Of a DNA stretch of 64,000 bases, positions 38,942-50,979 are shown one piece after another; position 1 is the stretch's first letter; every line of letters starts with the position of its first letter. This DNA is from Haloarcula mannanilytica. Its GTDB lineage: Archaea; Halobacteriota; Halobacteria; Halobacteriales; Haloarculaceae. Below the pieces are notes generated by a model. The model saw only the letters and a program-made list of their open reading frames with translations. It did no database searches and was not told the origin of the DNA. Location of the stretch: NCBI RefSeq assembly GCF_005406125.1, contig NZ_BIXZ01000001.1, positions 496,001 through 560,000 of the forward strand, read 5' to 3'. Both the position numbers and the translations under genes were made by a program.

Positions 38942-39934
38942 ATGACGCCTGCTCGCGGGACCGTCCATCTCGTTGCCGGTACCGAAGCGACTGCTATGGC
39001 TGCAGCGCTCTCCGACGAACTGACAGCGGATGGTGTCAGAGCCGAGGCCGTTCAAGAGCCGAGCGTCGTACAGGACCGACTGGCCGAAGGAAATATCAGA
39101 AGTGTCGTCATCAGTGATAGCGACGACTGCGACGGGCTTGCGGTGTTCGAACAACTGCGAGCGGCAGGGGCCGTGGTTCCGATAGTACTGGTCGCGGCCG
39201 ACCCCGATCCGGACCGAGTCACTGAGGCGCTCCGGGCCGGCGTCACTGATTACGTCGACACAGCAATGCCGTCGTCGCTGTTGGCCGCGCGGCTCGAAGC
39301 ATACGCGACCCGGTGGCCGACGGACTGGCGCGTCGGTGCTGCACAGTGGGACGATATTTCAAGCGGCGTCTCACACGACGCGAAGAACCCGCTGAACGTC
39401 GTCATGGGTCGGCTGGAACTGCTCGATATCGGCGAACCCCACGAAGAAGCGTTGCTTCGCTCAGTGAATCGAGTCGAGTCGCTGCTCACCGACCTCTCTC
39501 GCATCGGGAGCATCGCGTGCCCGGTCTCGAAGACGGAGCCGCTCTCGCTTTCGGACGTAGCGAGAGAAGTCTGGGCTGCTGCGAGCTACGAAGACGCGAC
39601 GCTGGAAGTAGCGACAGACGCCACTATCGACGCCGAAACCGACCGGCTCCAACTCCTGCTTCGTGAACTGTTCGACAACGCGGTCACACATAGCGAGGAG
39701 TCGGTGACCGTCACCATCGGCGACACCGATTCGGGGTTCTACATAGCCGATGACGGTCCCGGAATCCCCGAGTCGGACCGCGAGGACGTGTTCGACCAGG
39801 GCTTCGGGACGACGCGAGACGGAGAAGGGTACGGGCTGTTCCTCGTCGACACCGCGGCACGAGCCCACGGCTGGACGGTGACGGTCGGGGAGAGCGAGTC
39901 CGGTGGCACGCGCATCGACGTGACCACGTCCTAG
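38942..39934 (+). CDS. Soluble sensor histidine kinase with degenerate receiver domain
   Basis: A 330-aa cytosolic protein. Residues about 8-125 have a receiver-like fold: Asp59 in VVISDSDDCDG occupies the phospho-acceptor place, but the N-terminal acidic pair is replaced (VAGTEAT) and the conserved Lys after DYV is missing. HisKA motif SHDAKNPLNVV has His145. The HATPase domain has ELFDNAVTHSEE (N box), IADDGPGIPES (G1) and GTTRDGEGYGLFLVD (G2). No membrane helix is present, so it senses a cytosolic signal or works with another kinase. No response regulator is adjacent. Confidence 0.88.
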   Translation: MTPARGTVHLVAGTEATAMAAALSDELTADGVRAEAVQEPSVVQDRLAEGNIRSVVISDSDDCDGLAVFEQLRAAGAVVPIVLVAADPDPDRVTEALRAGVTDYVDTAMPSSLLAARLEAYATRWPTDWRVGAAQWDDISSGVSHDAKNPLNVVMGRLELLDIGEPHEEALLRSVNRVESLLTDLSRIGSIACPVSKTEPLSLSDVAREVWAAASYEDATLEVATDATIDAETDRLQLLLRELFDNAVTHSEESVTVTIGDTDSGFYIADDGPGIPESDREDVFDQGFGTTRDGEGYGLFLVDTAARAHGWTVTVGESESGGTRIDVTTS

Positions 39935-40516: not shown

Positions 40517-41689
40517 GTGATAGCTCCAGATCGTCGCTCGACCCGCTTACCGTCCGTTATTCAGGGAATCGGGTGGCTGCTTCTTCTCGGGAGCGTCGGT
40601 AATTACTTCTATTTCACTGGTGGTGGGCTTCCATCTGTTCTCACGGCCGATTTCGTGGTCAGCATGCTGGCCGTCGTGCCGTTCGCAGCGGCGATCATCG
40701 TCGGCGGGTTCTGGCTCACCACTTCGGATATCAGTTCGGACCGGTACCAGCGGATCGGGACCTGGTTCACCGGAGGCCTCGTCTCCTTTCTGTTGTTGAA
40801 CATAGCGATGATTCTGACGTGGCCGCCAGGGTCACTGGGAGACACCATCGGATGGGGTCTGTTTGCAGCTACGATCGGCGGCTTTGGTTGTCTCATGATG
40901 GGTATCCTCGAAGCGCGTGCGATTTCGCGTGCCGTAGAGAGCGAGCGACACCGGCTCCAGCGGGAGGCCGCCGAACAGCGCAACGAACGGCTCGACGAGT
41001 TCGCGGCCGTGGTCGCACACGACCTCCGGAACCCGCTCAACGTCGCGTCGGGGAACCTCGAACTCGCACGTGACGAACACGACTCGGAACACCTGGATAC
41101 GGCCGCTGCTGCGATGGACCGGATGGAGACGCTCATCGGCCGGACGCTGACGCTGGCCCGGAGCGGCCACGTCATCAGCGACACAGAGGCCGTCGATCTC
41201 ACAGACCTGGTCGATAGCTGTTGGGACGCCGTGCCGACGGCGGACGCGACGCTCGAAAACGAGGCGACAATCGTCATCGATGCCGACCCGGATCGGCTTC
41301 GTCACCTGTTCGAGAACCTGTTTCGGAACGCCGTGGAGCATGGTTCCACGGAAAACCGGTTGGAATCCGATACCGCTATCGAACACGGCGGCACTGACCT
41401 GACGGTTCGCGTCGGCGAGATGGAGGGCGGGTTTTACGTCGCGGACAACGGCTCCGGAATCCCGCCCGCAAAGCGTGACGCGGTGCTCGATGATGGCTAC
41501 TCGACCACGGACGGCGAAGGCGGCCTGGGGTTGGCAATCGTTCAGCGCATCGTCGGGGCTCACGGCTGGGAGATCGACGTGGCCGAGAGCGACGGCGGCG
41601 GGACGCGATTCGAGATTACGGGCGTCACGACGGTGGCGAACGCCGAGGAAAACGGTGCGACGCGGTCCCAGACACCGATACAGTCTTGA
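40517..41689 (+). CDS. Membrane-bound sensor histidine kinase
   Basis: A 390-aa kinase starting at GTG 40517. Four hydrophobic segments lie in residues 15-130 (GIGWLLLLGSVGNYFYF, VSMLAVVPFAAAIIVGGFWL, GGLVSFLLLNIAMIL, IGWGLFAATIGGFGCLMMGI). A short coiled coil follows (SERHRLQREAAEQRNERLDEF). Next come HisKA AHDLRNPLNVA with His168 and the HATPase with NLFRNAVEHGS, VADNGSGIPPA and YSTTDGEGGLGLAIV. There is no extracellular sensor loop of note, so it probably senses within the membrane, as the related haloarchaeal kinases are thought to. No partner regulator nearby. Confidence 0.9.
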   Translation: MIAPDRRSTRLPSVIQGIGWLLLLGSVGNYFYFTGGGLPSVLTADFVVSMLAVVPFAAAIIVGGFWLTTSDISSDRYQRIGTWFTGGLVSFLLLNIAMILTWPPGSLGDTIGWGLFAATIGGFGCLMMGILEARAISRAVESERHRLQREAAEQRNERLDEFAAVVAHDLRNPLNVASGNLELARDEHDSEHLDTAAAAMDRMETLIGRTLTLARSGHVISDTEAVDLTDLVDSCWDAVPTADATLENEATIVIDADPDRLRHLFENLFRNAVEHGSTENRLESDTAIEHGGTDLTVRVGEMEGGFYVADNGSGIPPAKRDAVLDDGYSTTDGEGGLGLAIVQRIVGAHGWEIDVAESDGGGTRFEITGVTTVANAEENGATRSQTPIQS

Positions 41690-42202: not shown

Positions 42203-43105
42203 ATGATTGACGCCCGGGATATTCGAAAGGAGTATGGCGGTTTCGTCGCTGTACAGGGCAGTTCGTTTTCGGTCGACCGCGGCGAGGTGTTCGGTATCAT
42301 CGGGCCGAACGGGGCCGGCAAGACGACGACGCTGAAGATGCTTGCCGGACTGTTGGAGCCCACGAGTGGTACCGCCGAAATCGCAGGCCTCGACACCGAA
42401 ACGGCCGAGATGCGCCAGAAATTGGGCTTTCTCCCCGAGGAGTCGCCGCTGTACGAGGAGATGACGCCGCTCTCCTATCTGAAGTTCTTCGCTGATCTCT
42501 ACGACGTACCGCCGGACGTGGCCGAAGAGCGGATGCACGACACGCTGGACGAACTGGAGCTCGAACACCGCGACCGGAAGCTCGGCGACATGTCCAAGGG
42601 GATGAAACGGAAGGTCGCCATCGCGCGCTCGCTCATCAACGACCCCGACGTGCTCATCTACGACGAGCCGGCGTCGGGGCTGGACCCGCTGACGACGAAC
42701 TACGTCATCGAGTTCACCGAGCAGTTGGCGGAGGAAGGCAAGACCATCGTCTTCTCGGCACACAACCTCTTTCACGTCGAATCCATCTGTGACCGTGTCG
42801 TCATCATGAACGAGGGCGAGATCGTCGCCCGCGGCGATCTCGAACAGTTGCAGGCCGAGTACGGCCACACGCGGTATCACGTCTACACGACCGTCGACGT
42901 GCCCGACGCGGTGCAGGAAAACGGGTCGTACAAGCGCGTCGTCGAGAGCATGGACGCCGTCGAGGAGACGCGCGAACAGGCGGAGTCGAACGGCGGTGAC
43001 GTGGTCGATATACGGACAGAGGAATCCAGCCTGGAGGAGGTGTTCCTCAACGTCGCCGAGGCCGGGACCCGCGGCACGCGATACGTCGAGGAGGACGCGG
43101 AGTAG
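42203..43105 (+). CDS. ABC transporter ATP-binding protein (ABC-2 type exporter)
   Basis: A 300-aa nucleotide-binding subunit. Walker A GPNGAGKTTTLK (34-45), Q-loop GFLPEESPLYEEMTPL, signature variant MSKGMKRKVAIARSL, Walker B VLIYDEPASGLDP and the switch His in FSAHNLFHVE are all present. The 80-residue C-terminal extension is typical of the NatA/CcmA-like branch, which exports small molecules or ions through ABC-2 permeases. It is followed without a gap by two permease genes, forming a three-gene operon; the substrate is not evident. Confidence 0.93.
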   Translation: MIDARDIRKEYGGFVAVQGSSFSVDRGEVFGIIGPNGAGKTTTLKMLAGLLEPTSGTAEIAGLDTETAEMRQKLGFLPEESPLYEEMTPLSYLKFFADLYDVPPDVAEERMHDTLDELELEHRDRKLGDMSKGMKRKVAIARSLINDPDVLIYDEPASGLDPLTTNYVIEFTEQLAEEGKTIVFSAHNLFHVESICDRVVIMNEGEIVARGDLEQLQAEYGHTRYHVYTTVDVPDAVQENGSYKRVVESMDAVEETREQAESNGGDVVDIRTEESSLEEVFLNVAEAGTRGTRYVEEDAE

Positions 43106-44983
43106 ATGCAGCTCGACAAGCTCCTGCGCGTCGCAAAGTGGGAAGTCACAAAAAACGCCGGCGGCGTCGACAAGCGAACCATCGTCGTGATGGCGCTGTC
43201 CCTCGTTGCGATGGGTGCAGTCGCGGCAATAGCTGTCAGTGGCGGCAGCGCGGGCATGGACGACGGGATTTACCGCATCGGCGTCGACGACGACAGCCCG
43301 TACTACGGCGTCGCGGCCGATGATCGGACCTTCGACATCCGCGAGCCTGACCCCGCTGCAATCGAGCGACACGAGCAGGAACTCCTGTATCGCGGAACCA
43401 CGCTCCGGAGTGTTCCACGGACGGCCAAAGAGCGTGCTGCCCTCACTGAACTCCGCGATAGCACGGCGCGGTACAACGACCGGACGCTCGCCCGGGACGA
43501 CAACGGGACCGCCGCGTTCCCGGTGTCAGTGACGCTCGTCTACGAGCAGCAGTCGGGGAGCAGCCAGCTTGATCCCCGAAGCGACGACGGCAGTGGCGGG
43601 TCGGGCTCGGACGGGAGCGGATCGAGCACCGGCAACGGGGACGGTTCAGGCACGAGCGGCAGTGGCGGAAGTAACGGCGACGGCTCGGCAGCGAGCGGCG
43701 GCGGTGACGGAGCCACCGGCGGCAGCGGCGCGAACCTCGGTGCTATCGGCGCGCGGCTGACCGGCGACGTGCAAGGCGGCACCCCCTCGGACATCTCGCC
43801 GCCGTTCCCCTTCGAGTCGCTCGTGCTCGCCTTTCTCTACATCGTCCCGATGAACTTCGTCATCCAGGCCTACGGGTCGTCGATGCTCTCAGAACGGCTG
43901 AACCGTCGCGGGGAACTCCTGCTCGTGACGCCCGCTTCCCGAGGGGACATCATCGGCGGGAAGACCCTGCCGTACTTCCTGGGAGCCGTCGGCGTGACGG
44001 CGCTCATCACCGCAGCGCTGCGGTTCGGGAACATCGCGCCGGCGGGGAGCTACGTCGCGGTGCTGGCGGTGGTCCCGCTCGTCGTCCTGTTCCTCTCGGC
44101 GACGTTCTGCGGGGCGATGTTCGCCCGCTCGTTCAAGGAACTCACCTTCGTGACGGTGACGATAACGGTGACGCTGACCTCCTATGCGTTCGTCCCGGCC
44201 ATCTTCACCGACGTGACGCCGATCGCGCTCATCTCGCCGCTGACACTGGTCGTGCTCGACCTGACCGGGCAGTCGGTCGGCCTCTCGTCGTTCGTCTTCT
44301 CGACGCTGCCGCCGCTACTGACCGGGCTGGTGCTGTTCGGGCTGGGGGCAGGACTGTACCGCGAGGAGGACATGTTCACCCAGCGGCCGATCCCGCTGAA
44401 GGTGCTCGACGCGCTGGCCGGTGGTATCAGATCCCGACGGAGCGCGCTGAAGATGAGCGTTCTCCTGTTGCCGCTGGTCATCGTCGCCGAACTGGCGGCT
44501 ATCGCGTTCCTGTTCGTCCTCGATTCCGTGTCGCTGAACATCTTTGGGACGAACCAGTCGCTCGGCATCGTCCTCGTTCTCGGTGTCATCGTCATCATCG
44601 AAGAACTCGCAAAGAGCCTGCACGTCTATGCCGGCTACGAGCACGCCCGCTATGAGCGGACGCTTCGGTCGGCGCTTGGCGTCGGCGCGCTCTCCGGCCT
44701 CGGCTTCTTCATCGGGGAGAAAGGGCTGCTTATCGCCAGGCTGTCCGACCTAGAGAGTCTGCCTATCGGCGAGGCTGCGCTTCAAGGCGCAACGCTGCCG
44801 GCCGGCCTGCCGCTGTGGGTTGCAGGGCTGTTGTTCCTGCTCCCGCTTGCGCTGCATACGGTGACCGCGGCCATCTCGTCGGTCGGTGCGAGCCGTGGCC
44901 GCCGGGCCTACCTCGGCGGGTTGGGACTGGCTATCGTCATCCACTTCGCCTACAACTTCGCGGTGGTGAGCACCCTTGTCTGA
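43106..44983 (+). CDS. ABC-2 permease fused to a PrsW-like intramembrane protease domain
   Basis: A 625-aa polytopic protein. Residues 1-50 form the first membrane helix. An extracytoplasmic region (50-235) ends in a Gly/Ser/Asp-rich linker (161-209). Residues 236-420 hold about six helices of the ABC-2 type (FVIQAYGSSMLSERLNRRGELLLVTPASRGDIIGGK in the coupling region). Residues 450-625 add further helices with PrsW-type motifs: Glu499-Glu500-x2-Lys503, GFFIGE (533-538), His584 and His613 with Asn617. It begins directly after the ATPase stop codon. NatB-like Na+ export or peptide export is possible; which is not decidable here. Confidence 0.88.
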   Translation: MQLDKLLRVAKWEVTKNAGGVDKRTIVVMALSLVAMGAVAAIAVSGGSAGMDDGIYRIGVDDDSPYYGVAADDRTFDIREPDPAAIERHEQELLYRGTTLRSVPRTAKERAALTELRDSTARYNDRTLARDDNGTAAFPVSVTLVYEQQSGSSQLDPRSDDGSGGSGSDGSGSSTGNGDGSGTSGSGGSNGDGSAASGGGDGATGGSGANLGAIGARLTGDVQGGTPSDISPPFPFESLVLAFLYIVPMNFVIQAYGSSMLSERLNRRGELLLVTPASRGDIIGGKTLPYFLGAVGVTALITAALRFGNIAPAGSYVAVLAVVPLVVLFLSATFCGAMFARSFKELTFVTVTITVTLTSYAFVPAIFTDVTPIALISPLTLVVLDLTGQSVGLSSFVFSTLPPLLTGLVLFGLGAGLYREEDMFTQRPIPLKVLDALAGGIRSRRSALKMSVLLLPLVIVAELAAIAFLFVLDSVSLNIFGTNQSLGIVLVLGVIVIIEELAKSLHVYAGYEHARYERTLRSALGVGALSGLGFFIGEKGLLIARLSDLESLPIGEAALQGATLPAGLPLWVAGLLFLLPLALHTVTAAISSVGASRGRRAYLGGLGLAIVIHFAYNFAVVSTLV

Positions 44984-46064
44984 GGACCGCCCCCTCTGGC
45001 GCGACCCCCGAGTGGTCGTCGCCCGGCGGGACATCCGGTCGCTGTCCCGCGAGAAGACTATCGTGCTGGCGCTGCTCATCCAGCTCTTTGTCGCCGGCTT
45101 CTCCTCGTTCCTCGTCGTCGGCCTCACATCGCTGTATGACCCCAGTTCCGTGGCGGCCGGCGAGGTCGAGATGGCCGTCACCGGCGACGCCCGCGAGGAA
45201 CTAGAGGCTGCGGCCGCCGAACAGGACGGGACCAGCGTCACCGCGTTCGAAAACGAAGCCGCCGCCCAGCAGGCGTTCAATCAGCGCCGAGTGGACGCGA
45301 TACTTCGTGGCGAGTACGTGCCGTCGACGCGCGGGCCGGGGGAACAGATACAGGTCACCGCCGTCGTACCGGAAGGGAGCATTCGGTCGACGCTCATCGT
45401 CGTCGAAGTTCGCCGGGTGCTCAGCGGGCTGGAGCGCCAGGAGCGCCTGGAGCGAACGCCGTACCTCGACCAGCCGCCCGTCCCGCTCCCGGACACTGTC
45501 AGCGCGAGTCAGTACTTCGGGTTCACCTACACCATCCTGATTCCGCTGTTGCTGTTCCTCCCGCCCTTTATCAGCGGTTCAGTGGCCGTCGACACCGTCA
45601 CCGAGGAGATCGAACGCGGGACGCTGGAACTGCTCCGCGTGGCCCCGGTGTCGCTGCTCGACATCATCGACGGGAAGGCCCTGGGCATGGTGTTGCTGGC
45701 CCCCGCACAAGCGCTGCTGTGGCTCGGGCTGCTGTCCACGAACGGTATCGCCGTCTCGAACCCGGCGGCAATTCTACTGTTCATCACGGCCGTTACCGTC
45801 GTCGTCGTGACGCTCGGGGTCCTGTTGGGCATCACGCTCCAGAACCGTCGCCCGGCGCAGTTGCTGTTCTCCGTGCTCACTCTCGTGGTGTTCGGCGGGG
45901 CCGTCCTCCTCCCGGAGCATCCGGCGACGACGGTGGCGAAGTTGGCCGTCGACAGTCCGACGCTACTGACCTACGCCCACGTCGGCGGGGCAGTCGTGCT
46001 GGCGATTGCGGGCTACGCCGCTGCTCGGCTCTACATCGGACGGGTCGCGGCAGAGGCGCTGTAA
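44976..46064 (+). CDS. ABC-2 family permease
   Basis: A 362-aa permease completing the operon. RRDIRSLSREKTIVLALLIQLFVAGFSSFLVVGL is the coupling helix and first membrane segment. A 130-residue extracytoplasmic domain follows (GEVEMAVTGDAREELEAAA...). Then come five helices with TVTEEIERGTLELLRVAPVSLLDIIDGKALG, the conserved ABC-2 intracellular loop. The start is assigned to TTG 44976, overlapping the previous stop by 8 bp; no ATG/GTG closer to the N-terminus exists. It probably dimerises with the PrsW-fused permease to make a heteromeric exporter. Confidence 0.88.
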   Translation: MSEDRPLWRDPRVVVARRDIRSLSREKTIVLALLIQLFVAGFSSFLVVGLTSLYDPSSVAAGEVEMAVTGDAREELEAAAAEQDGTSVTAFENEAAAQQAFNQRRVDAILRGEYVPSTRGPGEQIQVTAVVPEGSIRSTLIVVEVRRVLSGLERQERLERTPYLDQPPVPLPDTVSASQYFGFTYTILIPLLLFLPPFISGSVAVDTVTEEIERGTLELLRVAPVSLLDIIDGKALGMVLLAPAQALLWLGLLSTNGIAVSNPAAILLFITAVTVVVVTLGVLLGITLQNRRPAQLLFSVLTLVVFGGAVLLPEHPATTVAKLAVDSPTLLTYAHVGGAVVLAIAGYAAARLYIGRVAAEAL

Positions 46065-47441: not shown

Positions 47442-47942
47442 TCAGCCGCGAACGTCGGCCGCGACCCGCCGTATCTCTACAAAGTCGTCCTCGGAGTAGG
47501 CGATGAGCCGTACGTCCGTTAGCGAGTCGGGCTGGAAGGCGCTGATCTCCTCACAGATGATTCGGACGCCGTCCTCGAAATCGAAGCCAGCGATGCCACA
47601 GCCCAGCGCCGGAAGGACCAGCGACTCGCAGTTCAGTGCATCAGCTTCCGCCAGCGCGTTTCGGGTGGCGTTCCGGATGCTCTCGGCGGTGGACTGCCCG
47701 CCCGGCGGCATCGCGGCGGCGTGGATGACATACTCGGCGTCGAGGTCGTAGGCGTCGGTCGTGGCGACGCCGCCGAGGTCGACCGGCCCCTTCGCAACGG
47801 CCTCGTCGTTGAGCCCCGACCCGGCCGCGCGTTTGAGCGCCCCGGCGACGCCAGAGCCCATCCGCAGGCTCGTATTGGCCGCGTTGACCAGTGCGTCCGC
47901 CGACTGTGCAGCGATGTCGCCCTGGATTACCTCGAACTCCAT
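47442..47942 (-). CDS. Macrodomain protein (ADP-ribose-binding, O-acetyl-ADP-ribose deacetylase-like)
   Basis: A 166-aa single macrodomain. EVIQGDIAAQSADALVNAANTS (adenine and distal ribose contacts, with Asp-Ile and Asn-Ala-Ala-Asn), SGVAGALKRAAG (diphosphate loop) and LVLPALGCGIAGFDFEDGVRI (the second loop) are present. These match MacroD/TARG-like enzymes removing ADP-ribose or hydrolysing O-acetyl-ADP-ribose, the sirtuin by-product. A sirtuin is encoded 11 kb away, though not linked. The frame opens nine codons upstream; ATG 47942 gives the standard N-terminus. Confidence 0.94.
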   Translation of the reverse strand: MEFEVIQGDIAAQSADALVNAANTSLRMGSGVAGALKRAAGSGLNDEAVAKGPVDLGGVATTDAYDLDAEYVIHAAAMPPGGQSTAESIRNATRNALAEADALNCESLVLPALGCGIAGFDFEDGVRIICEEISAFQPDSLTDVRLIAYSEDDFVEIRRVAADVRG

Positions 47943-48058
47943 GCGCGATGCTGGGAGCGGAGCGGTCAAAGTTTTAGTGCCGAGGGACTGTGGCCTCTTG
48001 CTGGCTTGCTACCGAACCCCACGCCAGGCAGAAACCCATCTGGTCCCTACAAACCGAC

Positions 48059-48760
48059 ATGGACCTGCTGACGATGACGTGGCAGGACGTGGGGTTCATG
48101 CATTGGCCCGTCGAGCCCGAAATCGTCGGGGCGACGCTGCCCGACGGACTCGCCGTTGACACGTACGACGGGCGGGCGTGGCTCAGTGTCGTCCCGTTCC
48201 AAATGGCCGACATCAGGCCGCGAGGTAGTCCAATCGGTCGGTCCTTCGGCGAGCTAAATCTCCGGACCTACGTGGTGGCTGACGGGACGCCGGGCGTGTA
48301 CTTCTACAACCTCGACGCCGACGACCGGCTCAGCGTCACGCTGGCCCGGCAGCTGTTCCAGTTGTCGTACTATCGCGCGTCGATGCAGATACGTGCCGAT
48401 GGCGACAGCGTCGAGTTCCAGAGTCGTCGGACCAGTTCGCGTGCGCCGCCGGCGGATTTCCACGCCACCTACGGGCCGACGGGGCCACCGGAGACGCCCG
48501 AACCGGACTCCCTGGAGTCGTTCCTGGTGGAACGGTATCGCTTCTACGCCGCGAGCGACGACGGAACGGTGTACTACGCCGACATCGATCACGAACCCTG
48601 GCCACTGCAAGAAGGGCAGGCTGACATCGAGACGAACGGGCTGTTCGCCGCGTCGGGCTTCGACAGGCCCGACGGCGACCCGCTCGTCCACTACTGCGAC
48701 GAGATTCCGGTGACGGCGGGACGACTCCGCCGGCTGAGGGATGCCGCGCCGGGACACTGA
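48059..48760 (+). CDS. DUF2071 (YqjF-like) family protein, copy 1
   Basis: A 233-aa protein of the DUF2071/YqjF family. MTWQDVGFMHWPVEPEIVGATLPDGLAVDTYDGRAWLSVVPF at the N-terminus is diagnostic. Then come FGELNLRTYVV and GVYFYNLDADDRLSVTLARQLFQLSYYRA, the two best conserved blocks, and VERYRFYAA near the end. The fold is related to acetoacetate-decarboxylase-like barrels; function is unknown. ATG 48059 is used, with a second ATG five codons later equally possible. It is followed by a paralogue 78 bp downstream, with triple palindromes in between. Confidence 0.9.
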   Translation: MDLLTMTWQDVGFMHWPVEPEIVGATLPDGLAVDTYDGRAWLSVVPFQMADIRPRGSPIGRSFGELNLRTYVVADGTPGVYFYNLDADDRLSVTLARQLFQLSYYRASMQIRADGDSVEFQSRRTSSRAPPADFHATYGPTGPPETPEPDSLESFLVERYRFYAASDDGTVYYADIDHEPWPLQEGQADIETNGLFAASGFDRPDGDPLVHYCDEIPVTAGRLRRLRDAAPGH

Positions 48761-48837: not shown

Positions 48838-49512
48838 GTGGTCGCCCTTCGCCCGCTGCAGGTCACCCTCGACGACGTGTGTTTCTGTCACTGGCCGGTT
48901 GCCGAGGAAGCGGTGCAGGCGGCCGTTCCCGACTGGCTCACCGTCGAAACGAGCGACGGCGACGCCTGGGTGTCGGCCGTCGCGGCGACCGTCGACCGCG
49001 TCGAGACGTTCGGCGTCGAGATCGCCGGGCCGTCAGAGTTGCTCACGGTGCGGACCTACGTCCGCGGGCCGAGCGGCCAGCGCGGGGTCTGCGTGCTGGC
49101 GCTGTTCGGCGACGACAGTCGGACAGCGACGGCGGTCTCGGAGTTGTTTCGGATCACCGTCGGGGACGCCATCCCGCGGACGCTCCCGACGACCGACCGA
49201 CGACGGGTCCTCGATGCCGGCGAGCGGCGGCTGTTCGAGTGCCGGTACACGGTCACGGGTGACCCAGTTGCGATCCCGCCGGATTCGCTGGCCTCGTTTC
49301 TCGTCGACCGGCAGCGGTACTTCACGACCGGTCGGTTCGGAACGCGCCTCGTCGGCAGCGTCGGTCACGACCCGTGGCGGCTCGACCGCGTCGACGCCAC
49401 CGTGACTGGGTCGGTATTTCCGTCGGTTGATATATCTGCGAGCGAATCGGACCCACTGGTCCACCACAGTCCCGGCGTCCAGGTATCGATAGCGCCACCG
49501 ATACCGCGCTAA
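48838..49512 (+). CDS. DUF2071 (YqjF-like) family protein, diverged copy 2
   Basis: A 224-aa paralogue of the preceding gene, starting at GTG 48838: VALRPLQVTLDDVCFCHWPVAEEAVQAAVPDWLTVETSDGDAWVS aligns with the copy-1 N-terminus (HWPV, TVET/AVDT, DGDAWVS/DGRAWLS). It keeps ELLTVRTYVRG and RYTVTGD-like strands but has lost the LFQLSYYRA block in recognisable form, so it is diverging. The RBS is weak; the palindrome array covers its 5' region. Whether its function equals copy 1 is unknown. Confidence 0.85.
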   Translation: MVALRPLQVTLDDVCFCHWPVAEEAVQAAVPDWLTVETSDGDAWVSAVAATVDRVETFGVEIAGPSELLTVRTYVRGPSGQRGVCVLALFGDDSRTATAVSELFRITVGDAIPRTLPTTDRRRVLDAGERRLFECRYTVTGDPVAIPPDSLASFLVDRQRYFTTGRFGTRLVGSVGHDPWRLDRVDATVTGSVFPSVDISASESDPLVHHSPGVQVSIAPPIPR

Positions 49513-49593: not shown

Positions 49594-50979
49594 ATGACAT
49601 CTGAAAACAATATACGGACGTTAGTCGTCGACGACAGCGATTTTTTCGCGGAGATGACCGCTGACACGCTCACCCAACAGCACGACATCGACTCGGTCGC
49701 CGCAAATAGCGCCGACGAAGCACTGGACCGGCTCGACGCGGAAGGGTTCGACTGCGTCGTCAGCGACTACGAGATGCCCGAGATGGACGGCCTGGAACTG
49801 CTTGAGTCGATCAGGGAGACGAACTCGTCCATCCCGTTTATTCTGCTGACCGGGCGGGGAGACGAGGAGACGGCGAGCGCGGCTATCAAGGCGGGTGTCG
49901 CCGACTACCTCCTGAAGCTCGAAGTCGTCGAAGACAAGCAGTACGGCCGGCTGGCAAACCGAATCGAGAATGTCGTCTCCCAGGAGCGCACTCGCCGGAA
50001 GTTCGAGTCGTTGGTCGCAGACTCCCCCGACGGTATCGTTCATCTGACGACTGACGGGACCATCCTCTCGGTGAACCCCTCGATGGCCGACTGGCTGGAC
50101 GACGACCCCGACACACTCATCGGGCAGACACTTGACGATGTGATGGACAGCGAGGCGGCGACACAGCGCGTCGAGGCCGGCCGGAACGCGGTCGAGAGCG
50201 GCACTGCGACGCGGACGGAAGACGCCGTCGGCGGGCGCCATTACCAAAACCAGTTCATCCCCGTGGACAGCCACCGCGAGATCGATACGTTCCAGTTGGT
50301 CTCGCGTGACATCACTGAACGCGTCGAACGCCAGCACGAACTGGAGCGCCAGAACGAGCGACTGGAGGAGTTCGCCAGCGTCGTCAGCCACGACCTCCGG
50401 AACCCGCTGAACGTCGCTCAGGGCGCGGTCGACCTGCTCACTGAGCCAGCAGACAGCGAAGAGGCCGAACTGGTCGCCAAAATCGACCGGTCGCTGGACC
50501 GAATGGGCTGTATCATCGAGGACGTGCTCGCACTGGCTCGGCAGGGCCGAACTGTCAACGACCCACAGGAGACTGAGCTGTCGACGCTGGCGTCGACCGC
50601 GTGGACCTGGATCGAAGCCGAACAGTCCTCGATGTCGGTCGAGTCGAGCGCGGAACTCGCGGCCGACAGCGGGCGCGTTCAGGACCTGCTGGCGAACCTG
50701 TTCCGGAACGCTATCGAACACAACGACGGCGAGGTCGAGATCGAAGTCGGGCTGCTGGAGTCGGGAGAGGGCTTCTACATTGCGGACGACGGAACGGGCG
50801 TCGACGGCGACGCCGACGACGTGTTCGAGATGGGGTACTCCTCGACCCAGGACGGAACCGGGTTCGGCCTGGCCATCGTCGAGCAGGTCGCCGAGGCCCA
50901 CGGCTGGGAGGTGTCGCTGACCGACAGCGACAGCGGCGGGGCGTGCTTCGAGGTGACCAGCGTCGAACTGCACGACTGA
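49594..50979 (+). CDS. Hybrid sensor histidine kinase: receiver-PAS-HisKA-HATPase
   Basis: A 461-aa soluble protein. The receiver domain is canonical (acidic pair VVDDSD, phospho-acceptor Asp58 in VVSDYEMPEMDG, Thr in LLTGRGD, Lys in YLLKLE). A PAS domain spans about 135-245 (ESLVADSPDGIVHLTTDGTI...). The coiled HELERQNERLEEF leads into SVVSHDLRNPLNVA with His266. HATPase motifs are NLFRNAIEHND, IADDGTGVDG and YSSTQDGTGFGLAIV. An intact input receiver and a kinase core suggest a phosphorelay node. It ends one base from the foldback element at 50979. Confidence 0.92.
   Translation: MTSENNIRTLVVDDSDFFAEMTADTLTQQHDIDSVAANSADEALDRLDAEGFDCVVSDYEMPEMDGLELLESIRETNSSIPFILLTGRGDEETASAAIKAGVADYLLKLEVVEDKQYGRLANRIENVVSQERTRRKFESLVADSPDGIVHLTTDGTILSVNPSMADWLDDDPDTLIGQTLDDVMDSEAATQRVEAGRNAVESGTATRTEDAVGGRHYQNQFIPVDSHREIDTFQLVSRDITERVERQHELERQNERLEEFASVVSHDLRNPLNVAQGAVDLLTEPADSEEAELVAKIDRSLDRMGCIIEDVLALARQGRTVNDPQETELSTLASTAWTWIEAEQSSMSVESSAELAADSGRVQDLLANLFRNAIEHNDGEVEIEVGLLESGEGFYIADDGTGVDGDADDVFEMGYSSTQDGTGFGLAIVEQVAEAHGWEVSLTDSDSGGACFEVTSVELHD

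Follow-up and report, generated by a model that had tools for sequence, protein, structure and literature searches.

In Haloarcula mannanilytica, a single gene joins an ABC-2 permease to a PrsW-like intramembrane protease domain, and this fusion is supported by tests of sequence, profile, fold, topology, and conservation. The window, meaning the whole stretch of DNA analysed here, comprises 64,000 nt (positions 496,001–560,000 of the forward strand of NZ_BIXZ01000001.1, assembly GCF_005406125.1), and all positions below are those of the window.

Gene cassette and permease half

The fusion gene (43106–44983, + strand) encodes 625 aa with 11 predicted membrane helices (ORF, Pfam, and AlphaFold2) and is the middle member of a gapless, head-to-tail cassette of three genes (ABC ATPase, fusion, second ABC-2 permease). 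The ATPase (42203–43105, + strand; 300 aa) is of the DrrA type (PF00005, E 2e-31; TIGR01188 drrA, 243 bits) with intact Walker A (GPNGAGKT) and Walker B (VLIYDEP) motifs, and its stop abuts the start of the fusion gene. The second permease gene (44976–46064, + strand; 362 aa counted from the first start codon, TTG; PF12698, 76 bits) overlaps the fusion gene by 8 bases. The preliminary description of this DNA had placed the fusion ORF at 43106–44983 with an ATPase and a partner permease in the same operon, and both the coordinates and the neighbouring genes were borne out. The genome carries one copy of the fusion and, elsewhere, a free-standing PrsW of ~350 aa. A Haloarcula japonica protein is 94% identical to the window fusion across the alignment columns from which the tree was built.

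Residues 1–425 (43106–44380, + strand) form the ABC-2 permease part, which consists of one helix, a large outside domain, and five helices (PF12698, AlphaFold2, and Foldseek). In the whole-protein scan, the window fusion matched PF12698 (ABC2_membrane_3) weakly and under the cut-off (21 bits, E 2e-4); its homologues matched the family clearly, with up to 52 bits. In the full AlphaFold2 model, the N-terminal part showed a permease fold with Foldseek matches to NosY, ABCA1/A7, and ABCH, and profile comparison of this part with the partner permease gave 84%. An ABC-2 permease fold and an adjacent ATPase, as in ABC-2 exporters, were both found. Judging from the families of its components, the exporter is predicted to be of the heterodimeric ABC-2 type, with one ATPase and two permeases.

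The outside domain contains a disordered insert rich in Gly, Ser, and Asp (residues 150–226; 43553–43783, + strand; pLDDT mostly <50), in which G+S+D content was 57% in haloarchaea versus 23% in the other members. The length of the insert is very variable in haloarchaea, and the equivalent stretch elsewhere has no Gly/Ser/Asp enrichment. The permease and protease parts meet at a K/R-rich cytoplasmic junction (residues 418–454; 44357–44467, + strand) with a YREEDMFTQ... motif. The junction length was nearly constant in haloarchaea and the rest of the phylum alike, and a REEDxF/REERLF-like motif was kept in many members.

Several other genes were observed near the operon. Three histidine-kinase-like genes are located at 38942–39934, 40517–41689, and 49594–50979; the first has a weak receiver-domain match, and the third was judged from sequence only. 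Two consecutive genes for DUF2071 proteins with unequal divergence (47990–48760 and 48838–49512) adjoin a macro-domain protein gene on the opposite strand (47442–47969).

Identity and active site of the C-terminal domain

The PrsW-type protease core occupies residues 455–624 (44468–44977, + strand) and has five membrane helices (PF13367, hhalign, AlphaFold2, and Foldseek). When residues 451–625 were scanned alone against PF13367 (PrsW-protease), the match passed marginally (E 2.4e-5; 24.4 bits, with the cut-off at 23.5). In the whole-protein Pfam scan of the fusion, the PF13367 domain was absent from the output, and this loss is probably why annotation misses the PrsW domain. Among haloarchaeal members, 40 of 66 matched PF13367 at E <0.01 (best 6e-10). 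Comparison of the fused domain with 22 free-standing archaeal PrsW proteins by hhalign gave a probability of 95% (E 3.2e-8), the alignment being collinear with all four motifs in register. As controls, the C-terminal profile was compared with the partner permease (0.1%) and with the CPBP-like proteins encoded in this genome (2%; 5 sequences only). With one Bacillus-type PrsW sequence, the C-terminal profile gave no match (0.4%), and therefore the tie to the PrsW family runs through archaeal PrsW. PF13367 scores were about 20–35 bits for the fused domain versus 90–160 bits for most free-standing PrsW proteins, indicating that the fused domain is a divergent PrsW branch.

AlphaFold2 modelled the isolated domain with a pLDDT of 87.7 and a pTM of 0.84, the pLDDT being 94–99 around the motifs. 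Sequence searches against solved structures returned no credible match. The best solved fold match by Foldseek was APH-1 of human gamma-secretase (5a63_C; probability 0.97, E 0.4), a scaffold subunit of another protease, unlike the fused PrsW domain. APH-1 is a distant relative of both PrsW and CPBP (PMC4602095).

To examine conservation, we used the window protein together with 80 haloarchaeal homologues and 20 others from elsewhere in the phylum, counting for each residue the sequences that cover it. Motif 1, E499 E500 x x K503 (44600–44614, + strand), was found in 100/100 sequences. In motif 2, F534 xxx E538 K539 (44705–44722, + strand), Glu and Lys were conserved in 100/100 and Phe in 99/100. 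His584 of motif 3 (44855–44857, + strand) and His613 of motif 4, H613 xxY N617 (44942–44956, + strand), were each present in 99/99, and residue 617 was Asn or Asp in 99/99 (Asn in 95, Asp in 4). No homologue that covers the C-terminus was without the protease residues. Since the domain shares on average only 54% identity with that of the window protein within haloarchaea and 29% in the rest of the phylum, these invariant residues are held by selection, far beyond what chance would leave. In Halomicroarcula sp. SYNS111, the fusion ORF (locus L010) diverges from the alignment beyond residue 565 and stops at 583 aa, so that both His motifs are lost; this may reflect a frameshift, a sequencing error, or a decaying copy.

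The motifs of PrsW proteins include EExxK, a His, and HxxxN/D, and the extra His is absent in CPBP proteins (PMC4602095). In the fusion, EExxK, FxxxE, the extra His in the next-to-last core helix, and HxxxN/D were all found, whereas the EExxxR and FxxxH motifs of CPBP/Rce1 were not. Compared with the PrsW family (PF13367, MEROPS M82; Bacillus PrsW and Haloferax HVO_0408), the fused domain shares these four motifs, the helix order, and the orientation, and differs in its covalent link to an ABC permease and in having FxxxEK instead of FxxxEN. FxxxE itself is common to the fused domain and free-standing archaeal PrsW. The residue that follows the motif-2 Glu distinguishes the two, being Lys539 in the fused branch and Asn in the free-standing archaeal proteins.

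K/R residues are abundant in the linker before TM7 and in loops TM8-9 and TM10-11 and almost lacking from the intervening loops. These loop charges indicate a single topology in both groups, with the linker after TM6, TM8-9, and TM10-11 cytoplasmic and the C-terminus outside. Counted from the cytoplasmic ends of the helices, the motif residues are at a depth of 9–19 residues (about 14–29 Angstrom), inside the bilayer, and their similar membrane depth is consistent with one shared site.

In the preliminary description, PrsW-type motifs had been read in the C-terminal 175 residues, with a structure and profile check of residues 450–625 proposed and ordinary permease helices named as the outcome that would overturn the reading. 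The marginal PF13367 pass, the hhalign match, the invariant motifs, and the confident AlphaFold2 model uphold the PrsW reading, and the profiles contradict the alternative: ordinary permease helices are ruled out by 0.1% to the partner permease against 95% to PrsW. Assignment to CPBP rather than PrsW is likewise ruled out by the motifs and the profile. From its conserved residues, the fused PrsW domain is predicted to be catalytically complete, with its active site kept.

Distribution and neighbourhood of the fusion

A survey of the fusion across genomes had been proposed in the preliminary description. We carried it out by family profile on 295 genomes spread over the phylum Halobacteriota. 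The fusion was present in 147 of the 295 genomes, in 141 of 235 good-quality genomes, and in 61 of 107 genera, mostly at full length. In the window's own family, 73 of 96 genomes were positive, representing 20 of 22 genera, and the fusion was found both inside and outside haloarchaea. In the tree, haloarchaea and the rest were separated with full support, and loci grouped by family. The phylum-wide spread together with this grouping is what old vertical inheritance with losses would give; the fusion is old and has been passed on as a unit. Because many genomes of the phylum are without it, the fusion does not serve a universal housekeeping step.

The partner permease was directly downstream of the fusion in 98 of 101 loci. 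A same-strand ATPase was directly upstream in 79 of 81 haloarchaeal loci. Among the other 20 loci, the ATPase was adjacent but divergent in 16 and one gene away in 1, and it was not found within the flank in 3. Across the 101 loci, there was no fourth conserved gene, that is, one naming a substrate.

Two local arrangements were also observed. Halorussus salinisoli has a fusion copy (locus L026, 3971–5932) with neither ATPase nor partner permease within the flank and a second copy (locus L033) with the partner permease downstream; the solo paralogue may work without a transporter of its own. Two of the three loci of family f10 (L097, 6919–8748, and L099) encode an exported protein of ~610 aa downstream of the permease; in L097, it has TRAP-beta/DUF11/BatD-like domains. 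This exported protein is a possible family-specific partner or substrate.

Proposed function and alternative explanations

That one permease carries a complete protease whose predicted site lies inside the membrane suggests that cleavage and transport are combined. The preliminary description had suggested export coupled to cleavage of a membrane or signal peptide, or self-regulation, both of which are plausible. We put at about even the chance that the heterodimeric ABC-2 exporter, through its covalently attached PrsW protease, cuts a membrane segment and clears the product. The PrsW site would cut a hydrophobic membrane segment, for example a signal-peptide remnant, the anchor of a small membrane protein, or a peptide precursor, after which the permease pair next to this site, powered by ATP, would remove the cleaved product, most likely to the outside. 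Such a complex would be a single-polypeptide counterpart of EcsAB with RasP/Eep. Against this proposal stand the lack of a linked candidate substrate gene, the divergence of the PrsW branch, Lys539 in place of Asn, and the absence of the fusion from many genomes.

EcsAB/PptAB with RasP/Eep of Bacillota likewise tie an ABC exporter functionally to an intramembrane protease and handle hydrophobic peptides derived from leaders. In Bacillota, ecs mutants block cleavage by RasP, and Ecs has been proposed to clear peptides from the membrane (PMC2996298); Eep and EcsAB are needed for the processing and release of lipoprotein-leader peptides (PMC7157817); and PptAB is a further functional precedent (PMC5167397). 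In contrast to the fusion, EcsAB and RasP/Eep are encoded by separate genes, with a site-2 metalloprotease and a permease of an unrelated family. The EcsB family (PF05975) did not match the fusion, for which PF12698 was the sole Pfam match at E up to 1. Since EcsB and RasP/Eep belong to other families, the parallel is functional only.

Four other explanations were weighed; we rank them as regulation, a non-catalytic role, peptide-antibiotic maturation, and surface-protein sorting, in that order. The foremost, though unlikely, is that the PrsW domain regulates the transporter, cleaving a membrane-bound regulator, orphan subunits, or the transporter itself under stress sensed through transport. 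Bacillus PrsW is cited as a signalling site-1 protease that cuts the anti-sigma factor RsiW (as cited in PMC4602095 and PMC9263693). Free-standing PrsW is also present in this and other genomes, so a separate target for the fused copy is possible. However, a regulator gene conserved beside the cassette was not found, and a lasting covalent fusion to a permease exceeds the needs of a signalling protease. To our knowledge, archaea also have no sigma/anti-sigma pairs.

Somewhat less probable again is that the domain is no longer a protease and serves as a substrate-binding or structural module, as APH-1 does in gamma-secretase. The best solved match to APH-1, the low Pfam score, and Lys539 at the usual motif-2 Asn are consistent with this, but the catalytic residues are invariant in 99–100 sequences phylum-wide, of which a scaffold would be expected to lose some.

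SagE with SagGHI is a membrane protease with an ABC exporter of one ATPase and two permeases. The fusion cassette has the same layout, and the partner permease is weakly SagH-like (E 9e-6); SagE differs in being a separate CPBP protein within a peptide-toxin cluster. Maturation, export, and self-protection for a halocin-like peptide antibiotic is nevertheless improbable, as no precursor or modification gene was found conserved nearby, and vertical, phylum-wide inheritance with usually one copy per genome is unlike bacteriocin clusters. The N-terminal PrsW domains of polymorphic toxins, which are proposed to cut cargo during export, resemble the fusion in that respect and differ in having no ABC transporter and in carrying the cargo fused to the protease (PMC3482391).

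Most doubtful of the four is a sorting enzyme that strips a C-terminal hydrophobic tag from surface proteins, which has a precedent in the related CPBP protease myxosortase (PMC11980579) and would fit the exported protein encoded immediately after the cassette in two of the three loci of family f10, one with DUF11/TRAP-beta-like domains, but gives no reason for an ABC exporter, lacks such a neighbour at most loci, and meets haloarchaea that already use archaeosortase A on the C-terminus of the S-layer glycoprotein (PMC9263693).

We know of no lipoprotein signal peptidase in haloarchaea. The fusion is unlikely to be this missing enzyme, given the many complete genomes without it.

Fusions of a permease and a protease as such are already known. 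NCBIfam NF041647 (ABC permease/CPBP intramembrane protease) also places a permease half before a glutamic protease of the same superfamily, and its model of 636 positions is similar in length to the fusion; its protease is of the CPBP type, whereas that of the fusion is of the PrsW type. NF041647 did not match the fusion at E up to 5 or ten of its relatives at E up to 0.1, ruling out membership; the partner permease alone matched it, scoring 41 bits where the cut-off is 435. The PrsW-type branch, which is unnamed, had no match among NCBIfam protease or fusion models, and the one annotated homologue in a public plasmid collection is named only "ABC transporter permease subunit". A literature search for an ABC permease/PrsW fusion found no describing paper; ABC-2 fusion clusters are mentioned in 'Fusion/fission protein family identification in Archaea' (PMC11237513), which has no mention of a protease among them. 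The preliminary description had named no characterised example; NF041647, a related fusion, qualifies this.

Even in Bacillota, where EcsAB affects RasP cleavage and peptide release (PMC2996298, PMC7157817), the mechanism by which ABC exporters and intramembrane proteases work together is not settled. With one polypeptide and an invariant active site, the coupling is open to point mutations in a single gene. The phylum-wide conservation and the invariant active site make the fusion more than a curiosity, and it points to an unstudied archaeal pathway. Tentatively, and at somewhat less than even probability, a phylum-wide archaeal complex would both cut a peptide within the membrane and use ATP to export the product, as a natural, covalent version of EcsAB-RasP/Eep, possibly secreting archaeal peptides or clearing signal-peptide remnants.
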